In this document: one piece after another, positions 22,855 to 63,344 of the stretch
Position numbering within the stretch: position 1 is the stretch's first letter
Layout of the letters: each line of letters starts with the position of its first letter
From: Vallitalea sp.
Lineage (GTDB): Bacteria > Bacillota > Clostridia > Lachnospirales > Vallitaleaceae
Length of the DNA stretch: 64,000 nt
Direction of reading: 5' to 3'
Assembly: GCA_025210515.1 (NCBI GenBank)
Contig: JAOARM010000033.1
Span: forward strand, 62,001 to 126,000
The notes under the pieces: model-generated
What the model saw: only the letters and a program-made list of their open reading frames with translations
Databases searched by the model: none
What the model was told of the DNA's origin: nothing
Program-made: the position numbers and the translations under genes

Positions 22855-22898
22855 TAAAAAAGGATAAGAAAGCATCTTTATTAAATGCCCTCTTATCC
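22855..22898 (-). terminator. Riboswitch-controlled terminator of the gcv operon
   Basis: On the minus strand GGATAAGA (22898-22891) pairs with TCTTATCC (22869-22862), with an inner GCAT/ATGC pairing, followed by TTTTTTATA. It starts immediately after the second glycine aptamer, so its 5' arm can compete with the aptamer's closing helix. In relatives glycine binding prevents termination. Confidence 0.88.
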
Positions 22899-22899
22899 T

Positions 22900-23075
22900 G
22901 TATTTTTACCTGAGAGATTCTACCAATATATGATATTGCTCCTTCGGTGCTACTATAGTAGCTTTCCAGAATTCTATCCTGAAGCGATCCTTTTGCCTGA
23001 AAGATTCTATAAGAATATGGCTTATTCTTATATTGCTTCTTCGGCTCCAAAGTGGTATCTCTCGCTACATTCATC
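22900..23075 (-). ncRNA. Tandem glycine riboswitch
   Basis: Two consecutive aptamers with the hallmark sequences are seen on the minus strand. Aptamer I (23066-22983) is closed by AGCGA/TCGCT and contains GGAGCCGAAGAAGC and TTTCAGGCAAAAGGA. Aptamer II (about 22981-22900) contains TAGCACCGAAGGAGC and CTCTCAGGTAAAAA. It lies upstream of gcvT. The 490-bp gap 22702-23191 holds only the promoter, this riboswitch, its terminator and the gcvT ribosome binding site. A short open frame running through it is accidental. Confidence 0.95.
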
Positions 23076-47541: not shown

Positions 47542-49446
47542 CTATCTTTCAAGAAATTCGCTAATGTCTTCCCATCTTTTCATTAGCTTTATTAGTGCAT
47601 TATTATTTTCTTGCTGCTGGGTAGATAATTGATTAAGCTTACTTGCATCTGAACTATTTTCAAGCATTTCTTTATTAATTGTATCTGCTATACTTTCTAA
47701 TTGTTCAATTTCTTGTTCTAATTTTATTAACTCTTTTCTTTTACTTTTATTTATTCTTTCATTTTCATCTCTATTATTGATATATTTATCTTTAGATGGT
47801 TCACGTTTTTTCTTATGAATACTTTTATCTAATAATCTCTGTCTTTGTTCTTTATAATACTCATAATCACCGTTATAGAATGTTAATCTACCTCTATCTA
47901 TTTCCCCTATCTTAGTTGCAATTTTATTAATAAAATAACGATCATGAGATACAAATAAGATTGTTCCTTCATAGTCTAGCAAAGTATTTTCTAGTATTTC
48001 TCTTGAATCTATATCTAAATGATTAGTTGGTTCATCAAGAATCATAAAATTAGTGTTTTCATACATAAACATACATAGTTTTAGTCTGCTTTTTTCTCCA
48101 CCAGATAACATATTAATCTTTTTGAATACATCATCTTTTATAAACATTACTTTTGCTAATTCTGTTCTAGCTTCTCCTATTGTTATACTATATTTATACT
48201 GAAAAGTTTCTAGTATTGAAACTGTCTCATCTGAAAACTTTATTTCTTGAGGTAAATATCCAATTTTAATGTTTGAGCCATATTTTATTGTTCCATGATT
48301 TACTTCTTTTTCTTTCATTATCATCTTTATAAGAGTAGATTTTCCTGTACCATTATCTCCTATAATAGCTAAACTATCTTGGTAAAATAGCTTTAGATTA
48401 AGGTTAGTAAATAGTTTTTTATTTTCATATCCTTTCTTAATATCCTCTAGCACCAAAACATCTTTACCTGATCTATCAATATTTTTTTGATATAGCTTAA
48501 TTTTTGTTTTTTCTAATATAGGCTTATCAATTTTATCTGCCTTAGCTAGACGTTTTTCAAGTTCTTTTGCCCTTTTGTACATTTTCTCACTATCTCTCAT
48601 CTGACCCCATACTCTATATCTTTTTATCTGTTCTTCCATTTTGTTAATTTTTCTTTGATTTTCTTTGTATCTATTATACGCTTCAATGAAACGTCTTTCT
48701 TTTTCCATTAGATAGTATGAATAATTGCCATGATATACTTCTACACCACTTGAATCTAATTCTATTACTTTATTTACAACTCTATCTAAGAAATATCTAT
48801 CATGGGATATAATTAAAACTGTGCCTTTATATTCTTTCAAATAGCTTTCTAACCATTCTATAGATTTTAAGTCAAGGTGATTTGATGGTTCATCAAGCAA
48901 TAATAAGTCTGGTTTTTCAAGTAGTATTTTACCAAGCATTATTTTTGTTTTTTCTCCACCACTTAGATTAGTAAATTTCATTTCTAGCATTTCATCCAAA
49001 ATACCTAGACCTACTGTTACCTTACTAACTTTTTCATCTATATCATACCCTCCTAGAAGTTCAAAACTTTGTTGTAATTCACCATATTTTATCATCAAAT
49101 CATCTATATTATCTTTTCTCTCATCTAACTGTTTTTCTATTATATTCATTTTACTTTTTATTTTATATATGTCATTAAAAGCAGAATACAAGACTTCTTT
49201 AACACTATATTCTAGGTCAAAAACTGGAATCTGGTCTAAATATCTAGGTTTAATTCCTTTTCTATAGAATATTTCTCCTTCATATTCTTCTAATCCCATA
49301 ATAATTTTCATAATAGTTGATTTACCAGTACCGTTATTACCTATTAGACCAACTCGTTCACCTGTTTTTATATCAAAACTAACGTTATCAAATATTTTAT
49401 TAGCTCCATAACTTTTTGATAAATTATTAACTCCACATTCTATCAT
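47542..49446 (-). CDS. ABC-F family ATPase (ribosome-associated, possible antibiotic resistance)
   Basis: 634 residues with two ATPase domains and no membrane part. Domain 1 has GNNGTGKSTIMKI, LSGGEKTKIMLG and LLLDEPSNHLDL; domain 2 has GDNGTGKSTLIKM, LSGGEKSRLKL and MILDEPTNHLDI. A charged linker lies between them, and the C-terminus is a Lys/Glu-rich coiled coil. ABC-F proteins act on the ribosome; some protect it from macrolide-, lincosamide- or pleuromutilin-type drugs, others are housekeeping. GAAAGGTGA precedes the ATG. The long structured leader with terminators and short ORFs favours the drug-responsive type, which is inference. Confidence 0.9.
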   Translation of the reverse strand: MIECGVNNLSKSYGANKIFDNVSFDIKTGERVGLIGNNGTGKSTIMKIIMGLEEYEGEIFYRKGIKPRYLDQIPVFDLEYSVKEVLYSAFNDIYKIKSKMNIIEKQLDERKDNIDDLMIKYGELQQSFELLGGYDIDEKVSKVTVGLGILDEMLEMKFTNLSGGEKTKIMLGKILLEKPDLLLLDEPSNHLDLKSIEWLESYLKEYKGTVLIISHDRYFLDRVVNKVIELDSSGVEVYHGNYSYYLMEKERRFIEAYNRYKENQRKINKMEEQIKRYRVWGQMRDSEKMYKRAKELEKRLAKADKIDKPILEKTKIKLYQKNIDRSGKDVLVLEDIKKGYENKKLFTNLNLKLFYQDSLAIIGDNGTGKSTLIKMIMKEKEVNHGTIKYGSNIKIGYLPQEIKFSDETVSILETFQYKYSITIGEARTELAKVMFIKDDVFKKINMLSGGEKSRLKLCMFMYENTNFMILDEPTNHLDIDSREILENTLLDYEGTILFVSHDRYFINKIATKIGEIDRGRLTFYNGDYEYYKEQRQRLLDKSIHKKKREPSKDKYINNRDENERINKSKRKELIKLEQEIEQLESIADTINKEMLENSSDASKLNQLSTQQQENNNALIKLMKRWEDISEFLER

Positions 49447-49519
49447 ATATTATCACCTTTCTAATATAGTACTTGTTTTCCTATATCTAACATTATTTTT
49501 ATATATTAAAAGGCTAAAT

Positions 49520-49558
49520 TCAACTTTTCTCCACGAAAAACAGGTAGCCAGTGTTCAT
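49520..49558 (-). other. GC-rich patch with a 12-codon ORF and terminator-like hairpin in the ABC-F leader
   Basis: Between the terminator at 49599 and the ABC-F start lies a patch noticeably richer in G and C than its surroundings. It reads as a 12-codon ORF, MNTGYLFFVEKS, with codons unlike the host (GGC, CTG, GTG, GAG). AAGG directly touches its ATG, so translation is doubtful. GGCTA (49550-49546) and TAGCC (49516-49512) can close a hairpin followed by TTTTAATA, a possible second terminator. Confidence 0.45.
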
Positions 49559-49598
49559 CCTTATGCTATGTATGTATTTCATAGAGTTTTTTAAATAC

Positions 49599-49625
49599 AA
49601 AAAATCCTAGACATAGTCTAGGATT
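49599..49625 (-). terminator. Intrinsic terminator between the 47-codon ORF and the ABC-F gene
   Basis: AATCCTAGAC (minus, 49625-49616) pairs with GTCTAGGATT (49612-49603) around a TAT loop, followed by TTTTTTG. Upstream sequence near the end of the 47-codon ORF (AGGATATATATA, about 49683-49671) can pair with TATATATAATCCT, which includes the 5' arm. This allows an alternative antiterminator. Confidence 0.85.
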
Positions 49626-49655
49626 ATATATAAATCTATATTGATTTACTTATTA

Positions 49656-49799
49656 TTATATATTTACATAATATATATATCCTTCTACTAATTTATTTTC
49701 ATAGAAATATTTAAAAATAGACGCACCTGTAGTAGGAGCTTGAAAAATTGCTGAAATATTTCTTTTAAATATTATCCATAAATTAGTTGAATTAGCCAT
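49656..49799 (-). CDS. 47-residue small protein or leader peptide upstream of ABC-F
   Basis: The frame runs from ATG 49799 to TAA 49656. The peptide begins MANSTNLWIIFKRN and ends EGYIYYVNI; it is moderately hydrophobic and basic in its first third. AAAGGTG lies six bases before the ATG, a 17-bp-spaced promoter lies upstream, and an intrinsic terminator follows 31 bp after the stop. This gives all signals of an expressed unit. I do not recognise a family. It may be a leader peptide for the ABC-F gene or an independent small protein. The 559-bp gap 49447-50005 otherwise holds only these leader elements. Confidence 0.65.
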   Translation of the reverse strand: MANSTNLWIIFKRNISAIFQAPTTGASIFKYFYENKLVEGYIYYVNI

Positions 49800-49845
49800 T
49801 TTAAACACCTTTTTTATTGTTATTGTATTATCTGATTCTTACTTT

Positions 49846-49874
49846 AGTTTAGCACATCATTAATAATTCGTCAA
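49846..49874 (-). promoter_or_regulatory. Sigma-A promoter of the 47-codon ORF/ABC-F leader
   Basis: TTGACG (49874-49869), 17 bp and TAAACT (49851-49846), with TGC immediately before the -10 giving an extended -10. It points toward the small ORF and, beyond the terminator, the ABC-F gene. Confidence 0.65.
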
Positions 49875-62920: not shown

Positions 62921-63325
62921 TAAAAACGGACCTTAATCTCTTATTATCAAGAGACGAAAGTCCGCGGTACCACTCTAATTTATTTCTATAGAAATACTCT
63001 TAATGGATATTAGTAATACTATTGTTATAATTTTTTCATTATAACTTATATTACAATATATTTCTTATAAGATAAAAAAACCTTTCGTCAAAAGAGACGA
63101 AAGGTATATTCAACGTAAACCACTCTTTACAAGAAAAATTGTAATTATAGATACAGGTGTTATTACCGATATCCTACCAATATAACGGTTGGTTTCCGTC
63201 TACTCCTACTATATATTTCAGAGAGCAACTCCAAGGCGAGTTCAATATTTTTCTAATACTATTTTCCACCAACCAATAGCTCTCTATAATTATCCAAATA
63301 TTTACTATTCCTTTTCTTCGTCTTT
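62921..63325 (-). ncRNA. Leucine T-box leader with two successive T-box/terminator modules
   Basis: Stem I is closed by AGAGAGC/GCTCTCT (63285-63279 and 63226-63220). The specifier-loop candidate GAACTC gives codon CTC, Leu, at 63240-63238. The first T-box-like sequence AAAGAGTGGTTTACG (63128-63114) is followed by a CCTTTCGTC/GACGAAAGG terminator with seven T residues (63104-63074). A second, canonical AGAGTGGTACCGCGG (62976-62962) is followed by a CGGAC/GTCCG terminator (62964-62921). No second stem I is seen between them. Both bulges keep TGGT to pair with the tRNA 3' end. It fills most of the 552-bp gap 62841-63392. Confidence 0.9.
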
Positions 63326-63344
63326 AACACTTTAATTTTTTAAT

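Follow-up and report, generated by a model that had tools for sequence, protein, structure and literature searches.

The closest described systems, as presented in the parts of their source papers cited here, are the leaders of vmlR, cplR and bmrB-bmrCD. In Bacillus subtilis, the vmlR leader holds a tripeptide uORF (MIN), an anti-antiterminator, an antiterminator and an intrinsic terminator before an ABC-F gene, and stalling on the uORF prevents the anti-antiterminator from forming (Takada 2022, PMC9226507). The clostridial ABC-F gene cplR follows a uORF (MR[I/M]) in a 5' hairpin, with a terminator and an antiterminator, and its terminator stem also sequesters the Shine-Dalgarno (SD) sequence of the gene (Obana 2023, PMC10201436). 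The published uORFs of this attenuator type listed there are very short: MIN, MR[I/M], MK[L/Q] and MAGN (PMC10201436). A longer leader ORF, of 53 amino acids, belongs to B. subtilis bmrB-bmrCD, which encodes an ABC exporter and is induced by 50S drugs, with translation of the leader required. Its predicted anti-antiterminator, antiterminator and terminator all lie in nucleotides 60-162 of the 162-bp ORF (PMC4191407).

We analyzed a leader on the minus strand of a 64,000-nucleotide stretch of DNA from Vallitalea sp. (the window). It resembles the vmlR leader in having a uORF, a predicted anti-antiterminator and antiterminator, and a terminator before an ABC-F gene, and the cplR leader in its clostridial ABC-F target and its uORF within a predicted 5' hairpin. 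MIN sits in a bulge of one stem-loop (PMC9226507), whereas here an ORF of 47 codons in the window, and of 30-75 codons in 40 annotated leaders, spans the whole predicted hairpin. A long ORF is a feature of bmrB as well; unlike bmrB, the present leaders have their first pairing strand (S1) at the start of the ORF and their terminator beyond its stop. The present leaders join the ABC-F target of vmlR and cplR to a long ORF spanning a predicted hairpin, and no description of this plan was found in the parts of the literature covered.

Our preferred reading, to which we give a probability of about two in three, is that ribosomes operate the leader as a transcription attenuator and that the 47-codon ORF provides the anti-antiterminator by its own folding. 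With no ribosome near the ORF start, codons 4-7 (S1) would pair with codons 35-39 (S3); this would let the terminator form and keep the ABC-F gene off. A ribosome held at approximately codons 1-12 would mask S1 and leave S3 free to pair with the terminator 5' arm and loop as RNA polymerase copies them, and transcription would continue into the ABC-F gene. The inducing condition would probably be an inhibitor of early elongation. If this is true, the leader exemplifies a switch whose codon window (approximately codons 1-12) can be tested. The attenuator-like leader is real and conserved, and the anti-antiterminator mechanism is likely. The initial annotation, in which an early stall allowed read-through and a ribosome at the stop codon allowed termination, was right in kind and wrong in detail.

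Organization and conservation of the leader

All features are on the minus strand. A promoter-like site with an extended -10 (TTGACG, a spacing of 17, (TG)TAAACT) is predicted at 49846..49874, followed by an SD-like AAAGGTG (49806..49812) and the ORF of 47 codons including the stop (49656..49799; ATG at 49799, stop ending at 49656). An intrinsic terminator hairpin, AATCCTAGAC-TAT-GTCTAGGATT, and a T-run come next (hairpin at 49603..49625). The predicted controlled gene, recognized by profile and model matches, encodes an ABC-F family ATPase of 634 aa (47542..49446) in the same direction. The initial annotation had named each of these parts and all are present; the terminator lies 30 nt, not 31, after the ORF stop. 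Scans alone found promoter-like sites and terminators at chance level (28 against 30.1 expected, and 1 against 0.5 expected in 4 kb, respectively), so the evidence for these elements is their conservation.

A search of relatives for the leader had been proposed. An ABC-F orthologue was present in 5/6 genus genomes, window included, and missing from one; the same leader ORF and terminator hairpin recur at all 5 of these loci, and at each the ORF is preceded by a promoter-like site with TTGAC[GT], a spacing of 17 and TG. When 5.8 billion proteins were searched with the leader peptide, its own cluster and one relative were found (P0002, Vallitalea maricola, 65% identical). Many leaders elsewhere in the family and outside it share this plan while encoding other peptides. 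We collected 79 orthologue upstreams and annotated 40 leaders by hand. The ORFs were chosen among those having an SD-like site, so the presence of an ORF and SD in these 40 leaders is not independent evidence. The start codon is ATG in 39, a terminator lies between ORF and gene in 40/40, and of the two alternative frames, one stays open along the whole ORF in 0/40 and the other in just 3/40.

Complementarity within the leader

S1, the predicted 5' strand of the anti-antiterminator (UUCAACUAAUUUAU, 49778..49791), is complementary to S3, the predicted 3' strand (AUAAAUUAGUAGAA, 49683..49696), with an A-A mismatch in the window. Overlapping S3 is the predicted antiterminator 5' strand UUAGUAGAAGGAU (49679..49691), which in the window only is extended by AUAUAUA to 49672. 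Its pairing partner, T, is the terminator 5' arm and loop (AUCCUAGACUA, 49614..49624). The initial annotation had placed an antiterminator strand near the ORF end, where the S3-overlapping strand was found by comparison. Its pairing of AGGATATATATA with TATATATAATCCT exists (-10.3 kcal/mol, one bulge); however, just AGGAT:ATCCT is kept in relatives, and the 12-13 bp AU-rich pairing was rejected as a conserved element because the long AU run is window-specific. A second conserved piece, UAGU:ACUA, had been missed. The conserved antiterminator is UUAGUWGWAGGAU:AUCCUagACUAA.

When leaders were folded singly, the ORF start paired with the ORF end in many of them. An alignment-independent swap test was performed with S1 taken as -10 to +40 of the start and S3 as the final 75 ORF nucleotides plus 5. 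S1 and S3 of the same leader paired more strongly than strands swapped between groups, at -25.2 against -14.6 kcal/mol in the genus, -22.1 against -15.3 in f1 relatives, -28.4 against -17.6 in a mixed group of 12 and -33.9 against -16.5 in an f5-like group of 15. L054/L058 lack S1:S3, with own strands no better than swaps (-12.8 vs -14.3 kcal/mol). Swaps within groups gave values near the own values, as expected for near relatives (genus, -21.8 vs -25.2 kcal/mol; f5-like, -30.6 vs -33.9 kcal/mol). S3:T was compared with two kinds of swap: -12.1 vs -9.9 and -7.8 for the genus, -12.5 vs -9.3 and -11.6 for f1 relatives, -14.3 vs -11.2 and -11.5 for the mixed group, -19.5 vs -11.8 and -11.3 for the f5-like group, and -25.0 vs -15.0 and -15.3 for L054/L058. 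With row and column effects removed, the observed S1:S3 and S3:T sums of 20 representatives were each reached by 0 of 20,000 permutations. The own S1:S3 ranked first in 14/20 representatives, window included; the own S3:T did so in just 6/20, with that of the window ninth of 20.

In the genus, 63 of 65 S1:S3 cells are paired, compared to 18-51% when the strands are slid; the changes are one-sided only, and pair counts equal those of column shuffles, with no excess. L109, L110, L111 and L116 were removed from alignment A3 to give A5 because their S3 is shorter. In 11 f5-like leaders, 90.5% of S1:S3 cells are paired (36-47% slid) and 97.9% of S3:T cells (34-51% slid, at most 50.7%). Double-sided changes are few (3 pairs in S1:S3, 1 pair in S3:T), column shuffles come close to the observed values and covariation is modest, the score being reached by 7/500 and 47/500 shuffles, respectively. 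In L070, one change is matched in S1, S3 and T. In the f5-like group, both the SD and the start codon fall within S1, and GAUUGUUUUGAAUGCCUGUCACC is the most frequent S3; since S1 and the terminator loop AAAACARUC are both partners of S3, the loop contains a copy of part of S1. Taken together, complementary strands for a mutually exclusive anti-antiterminator and antiterminator are present, S3:T being weak in the window itself.

Allowing up to 3 mismatches, the S3 pattern of the f5 type occurs in 8/38 genomes of one family, 7 times at known ABC-F leaders and once at an orphan leader. L125 (genome G142, position ~1500) is an f5-type orphan leader with motif and terminator that stands before a pyruvate-kinase-like fragment (by eye), not ABC-F.

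Ribosome position and predicted folding

Co-transcriptional folding was modeled on RNA ending at the terminator loop, when the 3' arm has yet to be made, and with a stalled ribosome masked (assumed footprint, -15 to +13 of the P site). For L048-L051 without a ribosome, the predicted probabilities of anti-antiterminator and antiterminator were 0.95-0.97 and 0.00-0.10. Masking a stall at any of 8 positions tried within codons 2-12 changed these to 0.00-0.13 and 0.58-0.97, and stalls at codons 18-24 left the antiterminator at 0.30 or less. Late stalls also flipped the fold, at codons 28-32 in L049 and 32 in L048 and L050, as did codon 16 in L050; the stall window is therefore not sharp. L051 did not flip with a stall at codon 1. 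For the f5-like L070, L073 and L109, stalls ceased to flip the fold between codons 3 and 6 and one later codon tried flipped it again, and in L062 the antiterminator peaked at just 0.48. The switch is weak in the window, going from 0.60 and 0.49 without a ribosome to 0.01 and 0.75 with one at codon 1; the antiterminator change is small since competition from the AU-rich extension is already present with no ribosome.

These folds agree in part with the early-stall route of the initial annotation. With a shorter cut, an early stall gave an antiterminator probability of 0.86-0.90 in L048-L050, 0.48 in the window and none in L051; thus the antiterminator is favored in 3/5 genus members and partly in the window, but not in L051. 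The anti-antiterminator between codons 4-7 and 35-39, which is what an early stall would break, had been overlooked. A ribosome at the stop had been expected to cover the antiterminator segment; just the last 5 of the 12 bases of AGGATATATATA would be covered, yet the antiterminator is low with a ribosome at the last codon of the window (0.02; 0.48 in L049), where the stem between ORF start and ORF end would be re-formed (0.66).

RNA folding had also been suggested as a check, and its result depends on when the RNA is folded. An early stall favors the antiterminator co-transcriptionally; in contrast, at equilibrium, with the fold extended to the terminator end, the terminator had a probability of at least 0.85 in 12/13 leaders, wherever the ribosome was placed among the positions tried. 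In these predictions, the antiterminator would prevail over the terminator just for RNA that ends at the terminator loop. Because equilibrium favors the terminator, the switch would have to be kinetic, with the antiterminator forming first and persisting. In the full-length fold, GTTGAATTTAGCC (49524-49512), 3' of the terminator, can pair with GGCTAATTCAAC (49797-49786) at the leader ORF start, both on the minus strand, which could possibly be a second use of S1 at the read-through stage.

Constraint on RNA and on peptide

An alternative to pairing by the ORF itself is a peptide-specific attenuator, in which a drug would stall the ribosome at a defined residue of the 47-aa peptide as in erm-type leaders. 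We consider this unlikely, although the ORF is kept open in all 5 genus loci. Over the first 37 codons of the genus leader, pS was 0.13-0.41 and pN 0.16-0.28 (9 pairs excluding L048/L050; small counts), whereas pS of the ABC-F gene in the same 9 pairs was 0.69-0.81, with pN similar to that of the leader. For L048/L050, pS was 0.09 in the leader and 0.23 in the ABC-F gene. The leader pN/pS was 0.59-1.78 in 9/10 pairs and 0.25 in L048/L050 (small counts). Synonymous sites of the genus leader are about as conserved as non-synonymous ones, and silent sites are far more conserved in the leader than in the ABC-F gene, which indicates that the RNA rather than the peptide is constrained. Moreover, the peptides of most relatives are unrelated, and an RNA motif described below occurs in all three frames of the ORF.

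The peptide may matter in one lineage. The leader of L054/L058 has a pN/pS of 0.08, a clear amino-acid constraint, and its motif region forms a strong pairing with the terminator. Leaders L020, L054, L058, L060, L061 and L135, from Clostridia and Paenibacillus, encode similar peptides (LP or SP, then GI[VT]H) with differing codons. It is possible, judging from these sequences, that the GI[VT]H-type leader peptide is a true stall peptide.

A frame-independent RNA motif

Leaders of the subfamily carry a motif of approximately ACGGGAGNAGUCUGYCC (19-nt pattern, approximately [CU]A[AC]GGG[AG]GNAGU[N]UG[CU]CCA). Its score exceeded the maximum of 395 shuffled sequences in 46/79 upstreams, of which 41 were judged credible; matches in L016 and L017 (far upstream), L092, L096 and L123 were judged false. 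The upstreams scored by the position weight matrix also served to train it, and the shuffles keep base composition alone, so these counts are partly circular. Two checks are independent of the training, namely reading-frame registers and Bacilli loci. In the 32 annotated leaders where the motif passes and falls within the ORF, it lies in the three frames 10, 11 and 11 times, which indicates conservation as RNA and not as peptide. Of 7 Bacilli loci listed from a scan of further genomes' contigs (at least 80 loci), 3 have credible matches, each within the same leader plan: those of Gottfriedia luciferensis, Paenibacillus doosanensis and Paenibacillus sp. JJ-223, all outside the training set. A fourth Bacilli match (12.2 bits) was discounted because it is inside coding sequence. 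L065, L068 and L073 have two tandem copies each. Nine credible motif-bearing upstreams were left without an annotated ORF (L059, L080, L082, L085, L086, L108, L112 and the near-duplicates L055 and L106).

On an ABC-F tree (FastTree), the motif is present in 52/84 rows (43 whole, 9 degenerate) and absent from 32/84. Whole motifs occur in branches to either side of deep splits, a pattern suggesting that the motif arose early and was lost several times. Vallitalea has the 3' half only (AGGTGCGTCTA in the window); the remnant ACAGGTGCGTCTA (49718..49730, minus strand; inner stem AUGGAU:GUCUAU) has lost the GGG half. The exact motif ACGGGAGNNRTCTGTCC was rejected as a general regulatory site: it matched 8 times across 295 genomes of the order, against 5 matches of the reversed control; 4 of the 8 are known ABC-F leaders and 4 (by eye) are coding or CRISPR-neighboring sequence.

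The uup RNA motif was reportedly described by Weinberg in 2017. A 2024 review describes uup RNA as having several highly conserved nucleotides and lying before a Uup-type ATPase gene in C. difficile (PMC11477304). The present motif is likewise a conserved-nucleotide RNA upstream of Uup/ABC-F-type ATPase genes in Bacillota, and the two may be the same; the comparison is by description, and the passage of the review mentions neither a leader ORF nor attenuation (PMC11477304). Rfam 15 gave no uup-named match at leaders, paralogues or other ABC-F loci, which is informative only if Rfam 15 includes uup. In 13 leader loci, no Rfam match of interest was found at E <= 10.

The conserved RNA could instead be a ligand-, protein- or polymerase-pause element, possibly uup RNA, with the ORF secondary. 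Independence from frame, tandem copies and occurrence in many upstreams and three Bacilli would suit such an element, as would the resemblance to uup RNA. We nonetheless hold it to be quite improbable, since the ORF frame is open while the others are nearly always closed, the genus of the window lacks the GGG half and still has the ORF, S1:S3 and the terminator, and 13 leader loci have no Rfam match of interest at E <= 10.

Returning to the attenuator whose ORF acts as the anti-antiterminator, we suggest tentatively, and with less than even confidence, that it belongs to an ancestral Bacillota class. In this class, the whole leader ORF would be the anti-antiterminator, reading where the ribosome stops and not the peptide, and GGGAGNAGUCUGYCC would be a second signal. 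Together these might explain the orphan uup RNA, and Vallitalea would have kept the switch and lost half of the element. A new question is what reads an RNA element inside coding sequence in all three frames.

Two Staphylococcus plasmid ABC-F genes (L212 and L213), whose products are 43-44% identical to that of the window, have a 40-48 codon ORF with GGTGAAGTCTGTC approximately 165 nt before the gene. The score of this site (11.0) is below the shuffle maximum, so its similarity to the leader motif is only suggestive.

The ABC-F subfamily

The window protein exceeds the generic NF000355 cut-off (459.6 vs 380 bits), which is also passed by 3/4 paralogues. The initial annotation had invoked drug-protecting ABC-F genes, which the models do not bear out: among the best 25 NCBIfam models, no resistance exception model reached its cut-off. 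VmlR is a resistance ABC-F, whereas the window protein matches no named resistance model and is far under the CplR cut-off (279.5 vs 780 bits). EttA models were the top scores, yet under their own cut-offs. The same genome encodes four more ABC-F proteins with 32-41% identity over at least 512 residues.

Profile A1, built from 14 orthologues, separated the subfamily (at least 823 bits) from paralogues (at most 645 bits) in the set tested, most high scorers being themselves in the profile. At a membership threshold of E <= 1e-205, the subfamily was found in 39/392 genomes of the order and 34/391 of the class. The leader arrangement accompanies it in both Clostridia and Bacilli. It is very improbable that the ORF represents a separate small gene, ended by a terminator of its own, and that the ABC-F gene has its own promoter: the 156 nt between terminator and ABC-F gene in the window and the equilibrium folds, which nearly always terminate, would fit, but the gap is just 41-45 nt in L048, L049 and L050, the arrangement stays with the subfamily across the two classes, and the minus strand from the terminator to the ABC-F start has no promoter-like site scoring at least 9/12.

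If the attenuator reading is true, this subfamily would be tied to ribosome-stall sensing and would be predicted to be an inducible ribosome-protection or stall-relief factor. Loci of family f31 (e.g., L083, L087, L088, L091-L102 and L120) form a clade of the subfamily without the motif and mostly without a recognizable leader ORF. A NiCo riboswitch lies near the ABC-F locus of one relative (L089, 3537-3635, plus strand). Elsewhere in the window, Rfam matches identified a T-box leader (62947-63327) and a tandem glycine riboswitch (22895-23074), both on the minus strand.
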